The notes beneath the pieces are model-generated. The model did no database searches. It saw only the letters and a list, made by a program, of their open reading frames with translations, and had not been told where the DNA came from. A program made the position numbers and the translations under genes. A DNA stretch of 36,723 nt from a virus, in the IMG/VR virus record IMGVR_UViG_3300003324_000055, positions 1 to 36,723 of that record. One strand, written 5' to 3'. Shown here one piece after another: positions 8,177-36,723 of the stretch. Within the stretch, counting starts at the first letter, position 1. Each line of letters opens with the position of its first letter.

Positions 8177-8740
8177 CTAGGCCAGCGCCATAGTGATGCC
8201 GGCGTCTAGCGTTTGTGGATCGTAGGGCTGGTGCCCGTTCTCATGGTGGATCACGGCTTCCGTGAGTTCCGTGAGTACCACCGGGTCCCTCAAATTCAAA
8301 TGCTGCTGCGGATTGGTCTTCATATCCTTTGCCACCGCAGCGATGTAGGAATCCGTATCGTTCTCTGAATCAGGCGCCCACCTCGATATGATGGCGGCGA
8401 TGGTGCGAAGGCCATGCCGTTCCTGGTAGGCCAGTAAGTTCTTTGCCAGCGCGCGGATGCCGTACTCAGGCTTTGTGAAGCGCTCGAACTCTCCGTTCCA
8501 GCCGACGACCTCACCGAGCCAGTCAATATCGGTGCGGCGCAGATTCCCAGGGTTATTGTTGGCGATTCCCAAAGGAGACTTCTTGGCCGGAGTTACAACA
8601 ACCGGGTCAAAATCTGGTACAGGAACCGGACGAGGAGTAGCAGGCTTAGGAATGACAGGATCACGGCTAACGACATCGTTGCGACGGACAACAGGCTTGC
8701 GCCGAAAGAGAGACGCGAGCCATTGAAAGATCGGCGCCAT
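8177..8740 (-). CDS. NPGNLR-type lysozyme-like endolysin, 187 aa
   Basis: Probable peptidoglycan hydrolase. The catalytic-type domain spans about 57-187: 'NNNPGNLR' (61-68), 'FERFTKPEYGIRALAKNLLAY' (86-105), 'ISRWAPDSENDTDSYIAAVA' (118-137) and 'HHENGH' (165-170). This 'NNPGN(L/I)R...F..PE.GIRA...LL.Y......T...II.RWAP..EN.T..Y' pattern is found in phage proteins annotated as structural or lysozyme-like. Residues 1-15 (MAPIFQWLASLFRRK) are a short hydrophobic/basic helix and 16-55 a Pro-rich linker, so it may be membrane-tethered. The ATG at 8740 is chosen over an upstream TTG (8767) that lies inside the preceding 28-aa gene. Confidence 0.75.
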   Translation of the reverse strand: MAPIFQWLASLFRRKPVVRRNDVVSRDPVIPKPATPRPVPVPDFDPVVVTPAKKSPLGIANNNPGNLRRTDIDWLGEVVGWNGEFERFTKPEYGIRALAKNLLAYQERHGLRTIAAIISRWAPDSENDTDSYIAAVAKDMKTNPQQHLNLRDPVVLTELTEAVIHHENGHQPYDPQTLDAGITMALA

Positions 8741-8741
8741 G

Positions 8742-8828
8742 TCACAACAACCCCAACAACCACCCAAGCCCGGCCGTCACCGACAGAAATATCGTCATCG
8801 CCAGCATAACCGCGAGTGTGTCAGTCAT
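8742..8828 (-). CDS. 28-aa single-pass membrane peptide in lysis cassette
   Basis: An ATG (8828-8826) overlaps the TGA of the upstream gene as ATGA. The ORF reads MTDTLAVMLAMT, then 'IFLSVTAGLGWLLGLL', and stops at 8742, one base before the endolysin ATG. Almost the whole product is one hydrophobic helix with a small polar N-terminus. The tight coupling on both sides argues it is translated. It could be a pinholin-like or antiholin-like peptide (inference). Far shorter than usual gene-length cut-offs. Confidence 0.6.
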   Translation of the reverse strand: MTDTLAVMLAMTIFLSVTAGLGWLLGLL

Positions 8829-29684: not shown

Positions 29685-30725
29685 TTACGCGATGCTCCAC
29701 ACCTGTGAGGTGTTGAGCTGGCTTGCCAGAAGGCCGCCAGTATTGGTGATGGCGCGATAGAGCACGTATTTCTCAGGCGGTCTCGCCGGAGAATGGCGCT
29801 TATCGCCCTCATCCTCCATCTCCCAGTAGCGGATGGCATTTAGATCCAGGCCATACGCATACTTCGATTTGCCCAAGTCGTCCAACTCGGGCACATACTC
29901 GACCATCATTCCCTTGAATGCGATGTCGGCCACCGAGGCGTCGATCTGCCCGTTCTTCGCCCACCCTTCCAGAGTATAGTTGCCCTTGGAGCGCAGTTCT
30001 TTCTCGAAGGCATCCATGAAGTCGGAGCCGGCAAAGATATTGGTCGGTCCCTTGCCATAACGCCGCAACTGGCGAAAGTCTTTTTGCATCGCCTGTACGG
30101 TGTTTTGGTCGGCCGGGGTCGAGGCGTTAATCAGCAAATTGGCGCGGTTACGGAACCACGTATTCGCTGTACGGTCGATGCCGAACGTTGAGCCTGCGGA
30201 TGCCGGTGAATCCAGGATGAATGAGGTGATGCCTGGGATCAGTTTCGGGTCCTGCGTTCCATCCCGCCAAAACATCTCGTCCATCGACCGGGCCGTGCCT
30301 TCCTCCATGTCCTCCAGCTTGTCCTGGAAGAGGTTAGCGATGGCGGTTTTCTCGCGCATGGAATGCTCGGTCGTGCGTGCGGAATCCATCGAGTCAACGA
30401 CACTGATGCCGTCGTTCTTCAATTCCGTCAACGTGACCGAAATACCAGCGTGCATTTCATACCACTTCGCCTGCGCCCGCTTGATATTCGCCGGGTTCAC
30501 ATACTGAACCTCGTCATCGTACGAATAGCCTTGCAGGGAAGTGGAGTAGACGCCCTTGACGGCGACGGTGATAAATTCCTTGCCGCCCGGGAACTTCTTC
30601 TTGCGCTTCATCAGTTCGCGCACCAAAGGACGCGACTGGATCACGTTGGATTTCACCCCTGAGCGATCGTGAAAATCCAGCGCGGCGTTAGCGATATTCG
30701 CTAATTCCTGCTCTGTAACCGGCAT
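29685..30725 (-). CDS. Major capsid protein, HK97-like, 346 aa
   Basis: AAGGAGG four bases before the ATG, the strongest ribosome-binding site of the late operon, fits a very abundant product. The pattern is that of podovirus HK97-fold capsids: N-terminal helices ('ELANIANAALDFHDRSGVK'), 'GGKEFITVAVKGVYSTSLQG' (E-loop-like strands), a long spine-helix region ('TEHSMREKTAIANLFQDKLED'), and a C-terminal part with 'GKGPTNIFAGSDFMDAFEKE', 'DIAFKGMMVEYVPELDDLGK' and 'YGLDLNAIRYWEMEDEGDKR'. It follows the scaffold gene as expected. A terminator follows it. Confidence 0.88.
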   Translation of the reverse strand: MPVTEQELANIANAALDFHDRSGVKSNVIQSRPLVRELMKRKKKFPGGKEFITVAVKGVYSTSLQGYSYDDEVQYVNPANIKRAQAKWYEMHAGISVTLTELKNDGISVVDSMDSARTTEHSMREKTAIANLFQDKLEDMEEGTARSMDEMFWRDGTQDPKLIPGITSFILDSPASAGSTFGIDRTANTWFRNRANLLINASTPADQNTVQAMQKDFRQLRRYGKGPTNIFAGSDFMDAFEKELRSKGNYTLEGWAKNGQIDASVADIAFKGMMVEYVPELDDLGKSKYAYGLDLNAIRYWEMEDEGDKRHSPARPPEKYVLYRAITNTGGLLASQLNTSQVWSIA

Positions 30726-30734
30726 AAAGCCTCC

Positions 30735-31787
30735 TTACGCTCGGCTACGCGCCAACCCCAATTCGACTGCCTCTAGCATGTTTTTGGGAACCGGCTGCGC
30801 GCCATTGGTTGCAGTGCCCGAGGCACCTGTCACCGTTCGCACAGAGGGCTTGGCCGGCATCATGGCTTTGAGGCGATCCTCGACCGCACGGCGCGCGTCT
30901 TTCGACATCTGCACCGCTTCCTCCGGCGATCTGGGAGCGCCTTTCATAGCAATCATCTGCCGAACCTCAGCCTCCACAAACGGCTGCTTCTTCGGATAGT
31001 CGGGATCGCTCTGCTTCCACTGGTCTTCCCAGGTAATGACTGCCGTTCTCACCGCATTGATGTGATTGCTCTGCTGGCTCTGAACCGTGCGCTCAACGGT
31101 GCGCTCAGACTGCTTGGTCGCCAGTTGCAGGTTCGCCCGCTCACGCGAGACGTGGAGTGCCGTATCCTCATCTATGAGCCCCTGGTCCACCTTGGCCTGC
31201 AAATCGGCGGGTAGCCGATTGCCGGTCAAAACAGTTAGGTTCTCAACGATTGGCGTAATCAGCTCCAGCGCCTTGCCGGGGTCACTTTTTATCAGCGATG
31301 CGATGAGGAAGGCTTGCGCCACGTCCTCGGAAGACAAATCAGCCTCTTGCACGGCCGTGCGGAAGGACTCGAAGTCTTGGACGACCTTTTCCTTGGCGCC
31401 AAACTCCTGCTCGCGGGCTTCAAAGCCTTTAAGCCTCTCTTCCAGATCACGGGTGTGCTTCAAGACTTGCCGGAATCGCGGATGCTTCCCAAACGGCATG
31501 TTTTCATATGCCTTCGGGTCCAACGATGGCGGCTTTTCAGTGTTAGCTTCCTTTTCTCCAGACTTCTCCTGCCCCTCGGTCGATTGGGGCGCCTCTTTTG
31601 CTTGCTGTTGTGTCTCGTCTGGCTTAGCTAGAGCCTCCGAGACAGCTTCAAGCATCGAAGCCGGTTTAACGACCTCTGAAGCGGACGAATTTTCAGTATT
31701 AGCGTCCGGTGCCGATGACGAAGGCGGCGTTACGTCGGCAGATTGGGCCGATGACGAGTCGGCCTCTGTATTTACGTCAATTGACAT
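30735..31787 (-). CDS. Capsid scaffolding protein, 350 aa
   Basis: Placed directly before the capsid gene, with AAGGAG before the ATG. The N-terminal 90 residues are disordered and acidic Ser/Glu-rich ('EADSSSAQSADVTPPSSSAP'), the middle (about 105-250) is helical coiled coil ('FRQVLKHTRDLEERLKGFEA'), and the C-terminus is short, basic and helical ('RAVEDRLKAMMPAKP', 'MLEAVELGLARSRA'). This acidic, helical build and gene order are those of scaffolds that guide procapsid assembly. 'MLEAV' occurs near both ends (about 43 and 337). It overlaps the upstream gene by 16 bases. Confidence 0.8.
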   Translation of the reverse strand: MSIDVNTEADSSSAQSADVTPPSSSAPDANTENSSASEVVKPASMLEAVSEALAKPDETQQQAKEAPQSTEGQEKSGEKEANTEKPPSLDPKAYENMPFGKHPRFRQVLKHTRDLEERLKGFEAREQEFGAKEKVVQDFESFRTAVQEADLSSEDVAQAFLIASLIKSDPGKALELITPIVENLTVLTGNRLPADLQAKVDQGLIDEDTALHVSRERANLQLATKQSERTVERTVQSQQSNHINAVRTAVITWEDQWKQSDPDYPKKQPFVEAEVRQMIAMKGAPRSPEEAVQMSKDARRAVEDRLKAMMPAKPSVRTVTGASGTATNGAQPVPKNMLEAVELGLARSRA

Positions 31788-32248
31788 CCCAAACTCCTTG
31801 CAAGATCCACTCGTTTCCAGAGGTAGCTGATAAATAACTCATCCTCATCGCCACGACTGGCCCCCAAACTCTCGCAAAACCGTGCGGCATCGGCATTGAT
31901 CTTCAACACCGGCACCTTGACCGTCTCGGCGCCCGCGCTCAGCAGTCGTTCCATCACCTGCTTAAAGCCTCTCTTCGCGGCACGCCAAGACAATCCATCG
32001 AATTCATCGGTCTCTAGCATCCAGGCTTGCCAACTGTCAAGTCCGATGCGTTGTGCCCCGAATATACAGACAGGTTCCCTATCGCGCAATACGACATAAC
32101 TGCAAGGGAACAAAAGATAGGCCAATGCGTACTGACTGTGGTTCCAAACTGTGCCCATCGCCATCAATTCCCGCTTGTTTTCCTCCGTCAGCCGGCTCAG
32201 CACGTAACAGATATTCTCGTAGCTCGCAAAGGCGACCGCGTGGGCCAC
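31772..32248 (-). CDS. T7 gp13-like GNAT-fold protein, 158 aa
   Basis: Resembles the acetyltransferase-fold phage proteins related to T7 gp13 (DUF2833): 'WNHSQYALAYLLFPCSYVVL' and 'REPVCIFGAQRIGLDSWQAW', then 'MLETDEFDGLSWRAAKRGFK', 'VKVPVLKINADAARFCESLG' and 'FISYLWKR', which give the strand-helix order of a GNAT domain with the 'A.RFCESLGA' C-terminal motif. Starts at a GTG directly after the portal stop (TAA-GTG). Acetyltransferase activity is not shown; in T7 this protein is needed for morphogenesis. Confidence 0.7.
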   Translation of the reverse strand: MAHAVAFASYENICYVLSRLTEENKRELMAMGTVWNHSQYALAYLLFPCSYVVLRDREPVCIFGAQRIGLDSWQAWMLETDEFDGLSWRAAKRGFKQVMERLLSAGAETVKVPVLKINADAARFCESLGASRGDEDELFISYLWKRVDLARSLGCQLT

Positions 32249-34375
32249 TTAAATGGCCTCGCCCGGCCTGGGGACTTGCCCCTGTCGGATGTCGTTTGGG
32301 GCCGGACGCGGGAATTGTGGACGCACTACGTTATCGCCACCCTCTGGGCCTTGCTGTTCCGGCGGATTCTCGGCATTCCCCGCCTGTGCTGTCACCTGCT
32401 GCTGGCGGTTCAACACCATGATAGCCGGCAAATTGGCAACGATAGCCTCATCCAAGTCCACCTTGTCGTCCATACGCTTAACGGTCTCCTTGGCAAGCCA
32501 GGTCGGCGAGATTTCACCCGTCTGCAACGCAAGAGGCAACAACTGTATCCAGTTTTGCAAATCGACGGCCTGGTGCGGCTTGCCGGATGACCCCGCCTCG
32601 ACCTCTAGCCAAAGCTGTTCTGTGATCTCCTCTGCACTCCACTGAGGCCACACCGCGAATTGGCCGGCGATTTTAGCGACTGTCTCAGGCGACATCTCTT
32701 TTAACAGCACTACACCCGCGCCGCGAGCCAGCGCGGACAGGAAATCATCCATCTCGTCTACGTCAGCATTGGTCGAAACCATGCGTGAGTTTTCTGCGAT
32801 GGTGGATTCGGTCGCCGTATCGCCTGAAGTCGTGCCCAAGTTTGCCTGTTGATTGCCCAAGACAAGCAGGTAGTCCTGGTAGACCTCTGCGGAGTCGTAG
32901 AGACGCGCGTCTATTGCTGCGAATTGCATCGGAGCGATGAGATCTGACGGCTTCATGCCCTTCTCAATCGCGTTGACCAGCAATATTTCATGCGGCACGC
33001 TCGACATAATCGCCTGCTTGTCTTCGATTTCCATCGCACCCTTAGCGCCCACGTACCTGGGAGTATTCGCAATCCTGTGCTGTCTCAAGGCTTCGCGCTG
33101 GCGGTTGTGCTCGCGCTGCTGAGACTTCATCTTCTCGACATCGGAGGGTGGGAACACGTCTTTTGCGTGCTCGATGTCGTTCCAGCTTAGCGTGTAGTAG
33201 GGGAAAAACTGCGGGATCGAAATATTTGGTTTGCGCGGCTCCTCTAAAAAGTCTTCGTAGCCGTCGCATAATGTATAGAGCAATCCGTCTTTCTTGTCGT
33301 AATACTCATAACAGCACGCAAAGTCACCGCTGCCCTGCTCACCGTCTCGCGTGTATGTCTTATAGCTGCCTTGCTTTAGGTCTACGTTGTAATACTCCAT
33401 AACCTGAGAGGGGGTGAGCCACATGCGCTCAGCCACGGCATCGCAGCCGACAAAGCCCTTGAGCATCTTGACGTTCCCGATCGGGATCACATCCCAGGAC
33501 TTCGGGAAGTCAAATACCAATCCTTCTTGCAAGACTACATCCGGAGACTCCGCAAGAGACTTTATAATTAATTCAAGTTCCGTTTTTTCTGCCTCAAGAT
33601 TCTGATCGTTTTCGCCGTCGTTTATATTTTTAATAAGCCCTTCAATATGCATCAACTTTTCTTGGCTATCCGCGAGTCGATTTAAAATAATTGGCGTCTT
33701 GCCTGTCTGCCTCTGGAATCCCAGCTTGACGTATCCGACTCCGGTTCCGGTGACTCTGCGTACAAGCTGCTTCACCTGCAACTTAAACGTCGGGTCAGTT
33801 ACATCCGTAAAGTGATGAAACAAAATCTCAAGCGTCTCGCCGATCTTAGTCAGCATTCTCTGTTCAGACAATCCACGCTGAATGTCGGCCACAAGCGCTT
33901 GGCTCTGTTGCAACTGTGGCACTAACTCTGGTGCTACGCCGGTTCCGCCAATGGCGCCAGCCAACAACTGCATCGCAGCCTTCGCCGTCTCGATATTGCC
34001 GTCCCAGATCTGATACCAAACCCGGTCGGCTTTTCTGGCACGCACGCGCGGGTTTTTCGCATATAGCATGTTGGTCTTTTGCGCGACATGACGGCCGGTG
34101 ATGTTGGCGACGTACTGCTTATCCTTGTCCCATTCCTTTTCGCAGCCGTTCTTCACGATGTCCAAGTTGGACTTCATGCGGTCGAAGTCTTTTTCGTATC
34201 TTTTTTGCGCGTCTTGAACCCTAGTCAGCAGGCACTGGACGAGATCCTTGCGGCCCTGGTCCACTTCCACCGGCGAGCCCATCCCTTGCCCCGGTCTGGG
34301 GTCGAGCACCATCTGTCCCTGCGTGATGGGGTAGTCGTCACCAGATTGCACATCGACTTCTCTGATATCCGTCAT
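32249..34375 (-). CDS. Portal protein, 708 aa
   Basis: A large, mostly helical protein between terminase and scaffold, in the usual portal position. N-terminal 'RRYEKDFDRMKSNLDIVKNG'-type wing residues, 'YVANITGRHVAQKTNMLYAK' and 'KNPRVRARKADRVWYQIWDG' match the portal opening 'N....V....A..Y..NP..R..'. Further 'LFHHFTDVTDPTFKLQVKQL', 'RRVTGTGVGYVKLGFQRQTG' (stem/crown) and 'SKDVFPPSDVEKMKSQQREHN'-like helical turns follow. The acidic/Gln-rich C-terminal tail (NAENPPEQQGPEGGDN) extends into the crown. It forms the dodecameric DNA channel. Some 200 residues longer than T7 gp8, in the range of P22-like portals. Confidence 0.85.
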   Translation of the reverse strand: MTDIREVDVQSGDDYPITQGQMVLDPRPGQGMGSPVEVDQGRKDLVQCLLTRVQDAQKRYEKDFDRMKSNLDIVKNGCEKEWDKDKQYVANITGRHVAQKTNMLYAKNPRVRARKADRVWYQIWDGNIETAKAAMQLLAGAIGGTGVAPELVPQLQQSQALVADIQRGLSEQRMLTKIGETLEILFHHFTDVTDPTFKLQVKQLVRRVTGTGVGYVKLGFQRQTGKTPIILNRLADSQEKLMHIEGLIKNINDGENDQNLEAEKTELELIIKSLAESPDVVLQEGLVFDFPKSWDVIPIGNVKMLKGFVGCDAVAERMWLTPSQVMEYYNVDLKQGSYKTYTRDGEQGSGDFACCYEYYDKKDGLLYTLCDGYEDFLEEPRKPNISIPQFFPYYTLSWNDIEHAKDVFPPSDVEKMKSQQREHNRQREALRQHRIANTPRYVGAKGAMEIEDKQAIMSSVPHEILLVNAIEKGMKPSDLIAPMQFAAIDARLYDSAEVYQDYLLVLGNQQANLGTTSGDTATESTIAENSRMVSTNADVDEMDDFLSALARGAGVVLLKEMSPETVAKIAGQFAVWPQWSAEEITEQLWLEVEAGSSGKPHQAVDLQNWIQLLPLALQTGEISPTWLAKETVKRMDDKVDLDEAIVANLPAIMVLNRQQQVTAQAGNAENPPEQQGPEGGDNVVRPQFPRPAPNDIRQGQVPRPGEAI

Positions 34376-34376
34376 G

Positions 34377-36008
34377 TCACATTCCCCCTGCGGCAGTCAG
34401 CCGCTTAGCTCGCCTTTTCTCCGCCTCTGACCGCGCCTTAACCCAAGCCAAGCTGCCGACACGCACCACTTTCTCAGGCTCTCTCGTCTTTGATGGCTTG
34501 ATCTCTCTAAGCAGCCCCGTGCCTATCAGGCTCATGAAAGACACAAAGTCATCGTGTACCGCATTCGGAAACCTTAGCATCTCTGCCTGCGCTTCCGGCC
34601 ACCACGGTGCGAACGTTGGGAACCTGACCCTGCCCAACTCGATCATGCCTCGAATTGACCTTGCGCGCACTAATAGCTCTTTGCTCGGCGTGATGCTGTC
34701 GTCCAGCATCGTCCCGTAGCATCGTTCCTCTATCATCCTCTTCACCAAGAACGGCTTGAACGATTTACTGATGTGCTCGTTCTCCGCCCACCAAATCATA
34801 GGCTCATGCAACTGCATTTTGTTGATCATCATCTCGACGATCTTCGACGTGTCGCCCTCACGTTCCCAGTAGAGGTCTGGCAACACCCAGAGGATGCCGT
34901 CCTCGTCAACCCCAACCGTCCCCATGCACGTCTTGTCGCGGCGCTCCTCTTCCTTTGGGCTTACCGCATGATCGGATGCCGAGTATTTTCGCAAATTACG
35001 CGGCAAATCCTCTAACTTATAACCAATTAAATTCGCTCGTTTGAAATAATCCCCGTCTTCTGGCGATGGGTTGCCCTGGTACAGCGCCTCGAATACGGAC
35101 TTATCCAGTCGTTTCGCCTCGGCCAGGAACTTTAATCCCTTCCTCTCCGGCCATAGGCTGCTCATTGGCCGATCCCCAAACTGCAGCTTCACCTCATCAT
35201 CGGCAGGCATTTCCAACTTCAATCCCAACGCATCCGCCAACTTCTGGTCTGTCACCACGGCAGGAATGTTTATATACTTCCACTTCTCCGCCGTCAGCTT
35301 GTCATGCTCAGGATGCTCAGGGTCACACAGTCGTCCAATAAGATCATTTTGGTTCCATCGGGTATGGACTACTACTATCGCGCTAGAGCTGTGACAGCGT
35401 GAAAACGTCACCGCCGTAAACCATTCCCATATCTGCCGTAATATCGTCGGCGAGTCTGCCTCTGCTTTATTTTTAAGAGCGTCATCGATTATCAGCATGT
35501 CGCCAGCCTTACCCGTCGTCTTTCCGTCTCGCCCAACGAAGGCCAGCTCTCCGCCGTGGTCGTCAATAACTAATAGCCCTCGACTACTGCCGCCCTTCCT
35601 AAAACTCAACCCAGGGAATATCTGCCGATACGGATCGCTCGTCATCAACGCCCTGACCTTGCCGCCCCACTCCTCCGCAAACTCCTGACTGTACGTGCCT
35701 AGTATTAATTTAATCCACGGAAATCGGCCGGCAATCCAGGCTGGAAATGCGTGGCTTATCACCGATGACTTCCCAAACTGAGGCGGCATCGATACGGCTG
35801 CCCTCGACAAATCTCCCGCCGCTATCTTCTCCATCACTTCGCACAGCAGTCGAGCTTGAGGCGTCTCCTGATACAGCGATCGCCCAGCGTCCTCCATATC
35901 GTCAGGATCAGGGTTCATCAGCCGCAGGAATTGCAGCAGCGATGACTTGGCCTCCTCGATAGCGAGCAGCCTCCTTGTGGCTTTGGCGATGTCAACGTTG
36001 CCCTGCAT
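34377..36008 (-). CDS. terL: Terminase large subunit (packaging ATPase/nuclease), 543 aa
   Basis: The ATG at 36008 has GGAG six bases upstream; a GTG at 36020 has no room for a Shine-Dalgarno. The Walker A-like motif is 'MPPQFGKSS' (74-82), followed by 'LGTYSQEFAEEWGGKVR' (103-119). Walker B is 'MLIIDD' (171-176) and the coupling motif 'VVVHTRWNQNDLIG' (212-225). The C-terminal RNase H-like nuclease starts at 'YSASDHAVSPKEE' (Asp of the first catalytic strand) with 'GILWVLPDLYWEREGD' after it. ATP-driven packaging and headful or site cleavage. It overlaps the upstream gene by 17 bases. No small terminase subunit is visible in the window. Confidence 0.92.
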   Translation of the reverse strand: MQGNVDIAKATRRLLAIEEAKSSLLQFLRLMNPDPDDMEDAGRSLYQETPQARLLCEVMEKIAAGDLSRAAVSMPPQFGKSSVISHAFPAWIAGRFPWIKLILGTYSQEFAEEWGGKVRALMTSDPYRQIFPGLSFRKGGSSRGLLVIDDHGGELAFVGRDGKTTGKAGDMLIIDDALKNKAEADSPTILRQIWEWFTAVTFSRCHSSSAIVVVHTRWNQNDLIGRLCDPEHPEHDKLTAEKWKYINIPAVVTDQKLADALGLKLEMPADDEVKLQFGDRPMSSLWPERKGLKFLAEAKRLDKSVFEALYQGNPSPEDGDYFKRANLIGYKLEDLPRNLRKYSASDHAVSPKEEERRDKTCMGTVGVDEDGILWVLPDLYWEREGDTSKIVEMMINKMQLHEPMIWWAENEHISKSFKPFLVKRMIEERCYGTMLDDSITPSKELLVRARSIRGMIELGRVRFPTFAPWWPEAQAEMLRFPNAVHDDFVSFMSLIGTGLLREIKPSKTREPEKVVRVGSLAWVKARSEAEKRRAKRLTAAGGM

Positions 36009-36723
36009 ACGGATCTCCACCCTCCGTCACCTCGCGCGGCCCCATCACCGCCTGCACTAACCTCTGCCACGGTGTCACCGCTGCGGCCCAGTGGCGACCA
36101 GCCCTCACCCCCGGATACCGGTTCTGAAAATACATCGCATCCGTCTGCGCCGGAAACTCTCTGTGCAGCTGCGCTGCTTTTGGGTCGTAGTTCAACCCTC
36201 TATCCATTGCCGGCACCAATGTCGCCGTCAGCTCATTGCTCGACTGACGTTTGGCATCCATACTCGGAAATCCCAGCTCCGCCGCCCGGGCAAAGAACGC
36301 ATCGCCCGCGCTTGATTCCGGTACGCCGTATGGGTCGCTCTTACTCCACGCCAGGTTCCCCCTCACGCTTCGCCCTACCGGATACAACGCCGCGTTTTGC
36401 CGCGCCACCAATTCCGGCCCCAACCTCTCTTCCGCCGCATCCGTCCTCGCGTGCATCAGCTCATGCAGAATCACATCTGCCAAAGTCCTGTCATCCAGCC
36501 CATTGCCGCCACCTAGGTACACCTTCGCGCCAACCTCACCGCCCCTGTTCCACCTTTGCGCCTTCGGGCTCGTGTAGTCGCCCAACATGTCCCCTTTATC
36601 CTCGCCGCTAAACGTTATCGGCGTGTTGGCCTTGAAGTAATCCGGAAACGACTTCTGCAAGCCCGACAATAACTCAGCGATGTGCGACTGACCCCATGAA
36701 GTGATGCCGGTGTAGGCGGGCAT
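35992..36723 (-). CDS. HExxH zinc metallopeptidase-like protein, 243 aa or more
   Basis: The motif 'DVILHELMHARTD' (83-95) contains HELMH (87-91), the zinc-binding and catalytic signature of metallopeptidases. A possible third ligand lies in 'SSNELTATL' (161-169, Glu164), 73 residues later, as in gluzincin-type layouts. The rest ('GEVGAKVYLGGGNGLDDRTL', 'YFQNRYPGVRAGRHWAA') is unfamiliar. The ATG is exactly at the window's last base, so the real start may lie outside. It sits where many phages have the small terminase subunit, immediately before TerL and overlapping it. It could be a virion or head-maturation protease, or a host-directed enzyme; nothing here decides. Confidence 0.7.
   Translation of the reverse strand: MPAYTGITSWGQSHIAELLSGLQKSFPDYFKANTPITFSGEDKGDMLGDYTSPKAQRWNRGGEVGAKVYLGGGNGLDDRTLADVILHELMHARTDAAEERLGPELVARQNAALYPVGRSVRGNLAWSKSDPYGVPESSAGDAFFARAAELGFPSMDAKRQSSNELTATLVPAMDRGLNYDPKAAQLHREFPAQTDAMYFQNRYPGVRAGRHWAAAVTPWQRLVQAVMGPREVTEGGDPYAGQR

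Follow-up and report, generated by a model that had tools for sequence, protein, structure and literature searches.

Results

The gene directly before TerL in the viral DNA analysed here encodes a 243-aa protein that is probably a zincin metallopeptidase. The DNA (hereafter, the window) comprises 36,723 nucleotides and covers positions 1 to 36,723 of IMG/VR record IMGVR_UViG_3300003324_000055. Judged from sequence comparisons, the protein can tentatively be placed with zincin-like phage proteins, outside the ejection-protein family proper, and by the same comparisons it is probably neither a small terminase nor a conserved head-maturation protease. The zincin-like gene probably belongs to the late genes of the head operon, and in its phage group it is probably an accessory gene of variable occurrence.

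The gene before TerL

The initial annotation reported a gene directly before and overlapping TerL, and this gene is present as an ORF of 243 codons ending in TGA. Its codon usage fits the phage as well as that of TerL does (0.147 and 0.14 nats/codon, respectively, scored with the phage's own codon usage), and the ORF is therefore a real gene. The other five frames over it all score negative, and its GC content by codon position (59/50/74%) is similar to that of its neighbours. The overlap with TerL is 29 nt if TerL starts at the GTG and 17 nt if it starts at the ATG at 36006–36008; the purine-rich AGGGTGGAGA precedes this ATG, which is the more plausible start.

Codon 1 of the ORF is an ATG exactly at the contig end, reaching the last base (36723). 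A circular join of the contig ends was considered and rejected, because the left end encodes an apparent DEAD-box helicase start that runs off the contig and because end repeats are absent. For the same reasons, in a linear record, the sequence beyond the contig end is missing and the ORF is possibly truncated at its 5' end. Since the contig end cuts at the ORF start, the solo status of a small zincin cannot be shown from this record.

Table 1. Positions of the zincin-like gene, its candidate active-site motifs and the head genes used for comparison.
Feature	Position	Strand	Basis
Gene for zincin-like protein, 243 aa	35992..36723	(-)	ORF calls and coding score; 5' end is the contig end, possibly truncated
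HELMH, residues 87–91: candidate zinc ligands H87 and H91, candidate catalytic Glu E88	36451..36465	(-)	Sequence, shuffles, register with ejection-protein HExxH
Thr94, the T of HExxHAxT	36442..36444	(-)	Alignment A2 and motif lists; invariant in ejection-protein/vRNAP zincins examined
NELTA, residues 163–167, candidate third zinc ligand E164	36223..36237	(-)	Top second-motif position
TerL	34377..36020	(-)	Pfam PF03237, PHROG 38; GTG 36020 or ATG 36008; overlaps 3' end of zincin-like gene
Portal protein	32249..34375	(-)	tblastn to annotated portal of Mae-Yong1326-1; defines relatives used
Major capsid protein	29685..30725	(-)	PHROG 9953, IMG/VR scan; closest relatives 58–73% identical

Motifs and chance expectation

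The HExxH motif described in the initial annotation and its possible Glu ligand are both found, as HELMH and as Glu164, 73 residues after His91. The same glutamate is also the top position for a second-motif matrix derived from ejection-protein and vRNAP zincins, and its spacing lies within the range of that family (43–78). An HExxH arises by chance in 0.5% of shuffles of the 243-aa protein, and the stricter zinc-protease context (VILHELMHART) in 0.03%. This stricter context is the PS00142 pattern without its last position, which is unmatched in the protein (Arg93). In VILHELMHART the HExxH sits in a hydrophobic context, as in gluzincin-type metallopeptidases, and the pattern E[MLFI]x[AS]xL occurs once downstream of it (p 0.016). 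Across the window's main ORFs just one further HExxH occurs, HENGH, in a lysozyme-like protein, where it is presumably not a zinc site; because such a motif sits in the same window, a bare HExxH alone is weak evidence.

Likeness to ejection-protein and vRNAP zincins

A relaxed-threshold tblastn search returned eight phage records, six of which match one gp16-type internal virion (ejection) protein family at E 1–6. These six comprise five Enterobacter phages and one Salmonella phage, two of the records annotating the protein as hypothetical only, and the matches run from residue 11 of the query to between residues 107 and 122. The one match examined, phiKDA1 gp51, aligns in register with its own HELVH. 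An alignment and profile (A2) was made from 11 members of this family; it was chosen because the query matched it, and some selection bias remains. In all 11 members HExxHAxT is invariant, with E[MLF]x[AS]xL later in the sequence. Among solved structures, the A2 profile finds the N4 vRNAP, the phiM1 tetrameric ejection protein (PMC11440229) and a 1337-aa internal virion protein, and the zincin domain of the gp16-type family also falls within PHROG 2206 (virion RNA polymerase).

An independent set of 13 sequences (vRNAP and phiKMV-like) was collected from the gp16-type family, not via the query. In 13 of 13, HExxH is followed by Thr three residues on, and spacings to the later motif are 51–78. 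This Thr is present in all 24 ejection-protein and vRNAP sequences examined, most of which have the full HExxHAxT. The query shows the same Thr in HELMHART, and its ELTA, at 73, agrees with the E[FLM]x[AS] found at 43–78 after HExxH in the family. With matrices from the independent 13, the two-motif score of the query was matched by 0.035% of HELMH-keeping shuffles (p ~3.5e-4), E164 being the top position. Most of this signal lies around HExxH (p 0.0009 with HELMH held fixed, reflecting the hydrophobic VIL before and HAxT after), and the second motif (E164) alone is weak (p 0.09).

The A2 profile ranks the query first of 2001 shuffles and controls and first of 10,180 ORFs; the independent profile ranks it 10th among motif-keeping shuffles. 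Against the 10,180 ORFs, its HMM scores are 11.4 bits (E 0.10) with A2 and 8.8 bits (E 0.7) with the independent profile, neither of them significant, and hhalign gives a probability of 67% for the query against the ejection-protein zincin profile. Significant profile similarity to the ejection-protein/vRNAP zincin domain was thus not found by HMM or hhalign, and for this reason we describe the query as resembling that family, not as a member of it. We regard the likeness as good evidence for a zincin, and as only suggestive of the ejection-protein/vRNAP class specifically.

The domain itself, with HExxHAxT followed by E[FLM]xA, is common to N4 vRNAP and the gp16-type internal virion proteins of KP34-like and phiKMV-like phages; among our loci it occurs in internal virion proteins (L094:3941-4513, L096-L108, L117-L119) and N4-type vRNAPs (L110-L116). 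No Pfam model for it was found. Iyer and colleagues recognised a zincin-like domain in the N4 vRNAP region (PMC5512222), and the N4 vRNAP structure paper describes a C1 domain with a conserved HExxH (PMC12633501). Zincin or zinc-protease-like domains have therefore already been described in vRNAP and other virion-packaged, ejected proteins, and a zinc protease in this setting is less unexpected than initially proposed.

Homologue and structure searches

No significant homologue of the 243-aa protein was found in Pfam, PHROGs, NCBIfam or PDB sequences by profile or BLAST searches, none with confidence among 50,697 GenBank phage records and 72,556 PLSDB plasmids (where matches, at E 3–9 only, are at chance level), and none in 20 related phage records or ~780 alphaproteobacterial genomes. 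Nine bacterial genomes with related TerL loci gave only chance-level matches. Six pattern scans of IMG/VR and pattern scans of GTDB contigs likewise found no homologue, the two-motif DNA pattern among the six returning only unrelated sequence; the IMG/VR and GTDB scans require exact short peptide matches, which distant relatives could escape. A small protein in two loci (L061/L032) matched weakly but on inspection has no HExxH, and the match was set aside as chance. Within reach of these searches the protein appears to be an orphan, an absence that is not strong because none of the searches included a positive control for it.

The 243-aa protein has no match to PHROG small-terminase (TerS) profiles, and the TerS proteins of relatives have no match in the window. 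MPTase-PolyVal (PF18818) does not match the window even at E 1. AlphaFold, run twice on the single sequence, gave no usable model, and a Foldseek search with the first model was meaningless.

Relatives and the slot before TerL

Comparisons of TerL, portal and capsid place the phage in a group with Microcystis phage Mae-Yong1326-1, Rhizobium phage RHph_N65 and loci in Rhizobiales and other bacterial genomes; prophages related to this group occur in Alphaproteobacteria. Immediately before TerL these relatives differ: RHph_N65 has an HNH gene, and others encode coiled-coil proteins or proteins with no assignment, fibre genes lying upstream. In two loci (L004:2078-3319 and L005:4949-5977) the gene directly before TerL encodes a DNA repair exonuclease-type phosphoesterase (PHROG 704, 7339). 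A recognisable TerS, present in L006, L009 and L022, lies 3–5 kb upstream of TerL, with fibre and lysis genes between. Because the neighbours differ and TerS is found at this distance, the slot before TerL is, as far as these sequences tell, one of variable, exchangeable genes and not a conserved small-terminase slot in this phage group; the initial description of the gene as occupying the small-terminase position is thus not upheld. The TerL of one relative (L022:4684-7380) is interrupted close to the Walker A motif by an intein-like insertion that includes a LAGLIDADG homing-endonuclease domain.

Among 21 records, the window included, a DNA pattern encoding HE..HA.T has a single match, in the zincin-like gene. 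This gene was not found in related records whose capsid proteins are 58–73% identical (several of these records are partial), and the conservation with head genes that would be expected of a head-maturation protease is not seen among them. Nor was it found in the closest relatives, whose major capsid proteins are 70–73% identical and which have a recognisable scaffold, several of these records being incomplete.

Other genes in the window

The lysozyme-like protein that carries HENGH is a stand-alone protein (8177-8767, minus strand; PHROG 873, annotated as endolysin) encoded at the end of the late operon. Lysozyme-like domains can be fused to ejection proteins in other podoviruses. Between portal and scaffold lies a gene for a 158-aa protein (31772-32248, minus strand) that appears GNAT acetyltransferase-like by eye, has no Pfam match, and is weakly kept in L065 (25% identity). 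A RecE-like (YqaJ) exonuclease and a RecT-like annealing protein are encoded adjacently at 767-2605, on the plus strand, opposite to the late genes.

Discussion

We favour, tentatively and at somewhat less than even confidence, a reading in which the 243-aa protein is a zincin most like the domains of podovirus gp16-type ejection proteins and N4-type vRNAPs, encoded by a late variable accessory gene and acting in the manner of an ejection protein. In the predicted fold, H87 and H91 would be zinc ligands, E88 the base and E164 the third ligand. The protein would be made together with the head proteins and may enter the head or associate with ejection proteins; as a putative protease, it could then act around the time of DNA entry, cleaving either itself or an ejection or host protein. 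Against this reading, significant homology is absent by any profile or BLAST search, with HMM scores of only 11.4 and 8.8 bits, and the known domains lie in large polypeptides, whereas the ORF here has 243 aa.

A somewhat unlikely alternative is that the protein is an accessory zincin that is not packaged, serving as an intracellular effector (in host takeover or anti-defence) or as a lysis aid encoded in the variable slot. The absence of the gene from the related records searched is consistent with such a role, as are the unrelated genes that precede TerL in relatives, exonuclease-type phosphoesterases and HNH, which are what would be expected of an accessory cargo site. However, the zincin-like gene lies in the late head operon and overlaps TerL, and its product weakly resembles packaged ejection proteins, not ArdC-type or other zincins.

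It is unlikely that the protein is not a metalloenzyme at all and has its HExxH by chance, being instead a structural or packaging protein that has diverged, perhaps a small terminase beyond recognition. That no homologue was found in any collection searched would fit this possibility, as would the frequency of HExxH in shuffles (0.5%) and the presumably unrelated HENGH. There is also a precedent in an alphaproteobacterial podovirus, in which a small terminase with no detectable similarity to characterised ones adjoins TerL (PMC10386132). In contrast, the zincin context around HELMH is seldom reached even by shuffles that keep HELMH (p 0.0009), the second motif lies at the proper spacing, and a small terminase in particular is argued against by the lack of a TerS profile match and by the recognisable TerS elsewhere in the phage group.

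Doubtful, and a shade more so, is a free-standing zincin that is co-translated with the packaging motor and acts in trans to process head or ejection proteins, or else enters the virion as a protease injected in its own right. The coupling to the packaging motor suggested in the initial annotation has gene adjacency and overlap as its sole basis. Least probable is that annotation's main suggestion, which partly overlaps the other readings: a zinc protease of head assembly processing scaffold, capsid or portal proteins would suit a gene that adjoins and overlaps TerL in the portal/scaffold/capsid operon, but because the gene was not found in relatives whose capsid proteins are 70–73% identical (some records being partial), the head module seems not to need it and a role in required head maturation, including capsid or portal processing, is unlikely.

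Zincin domains recur in the giant proteins injected by short-tailed phages, and we found no report in the literature of what they cut. If the protein is indeed a small solo zincin, expression, mutagenesis and assays would be much simpler with it than with an ejection protein of 1,300 or 3,500 residues, and the question of zincin substrates would become directly testable. Such a protein would represent the protease domain of an ejection protein that has become a separate gene and would be, to our knowledge, the first solo zinc protease linked to head assembly or DNA ejection in phages. Proteins that phages inject are already known to contain zincin domains; a small version, possibly free-standing and encoded before TerL, may be new. 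Neither the ejection-protein review (PMC8954989) nor the phiM1 ejectosome paper (PMC11440229) mentions a protease. If the gene is only a variable accessory gene, the slot before TerL would still be an accessory site in this phage group.

Comparison with known systems

In many phages the TerS gene lies directly upstream of TerL. The zincin-like gene occupies this same place, but its product has no TerS profile match, and the TerS genes of relatives lie 3–5 kb upstream. With the MPTase-PolyVal domain of polyvalent proteins (PF18818) the query shares the HExxH zincin class of mobile elements, but not a Pfam match. The zincin (MPTase) domain of N4-type vRNAPs (PMC5512222, PMC12633501; PDB 9pnr) has HExxHAxT and a spacing of 64–78, as does the query (73), and several of these polymerases have NEFMA where the query has NELTA; however, the domain is part of a polymerase of ~3,500 residues, and its sequence match to the query is not significant. 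The gp16-type zincins are domains inside proteins of ~1,200–1,550 aa, often with a lysozyme domain, whereas the query is a 243-aa ORF before TerL; their spacing is 43–69 against 73 in the query, whose profile score is not significant. Nevertheless, the gp16-type ejection proteins of Autographiviridae (phiKDA1 gp51, KP34-like; phiM1 gp48, PDB 8vb2; an internal virion protein, PDB 9sfn) have HExxHAxT followed by E[FLM]xA in the same order as the query and, like it, belong to the late virion gene set of short-tailed phages.
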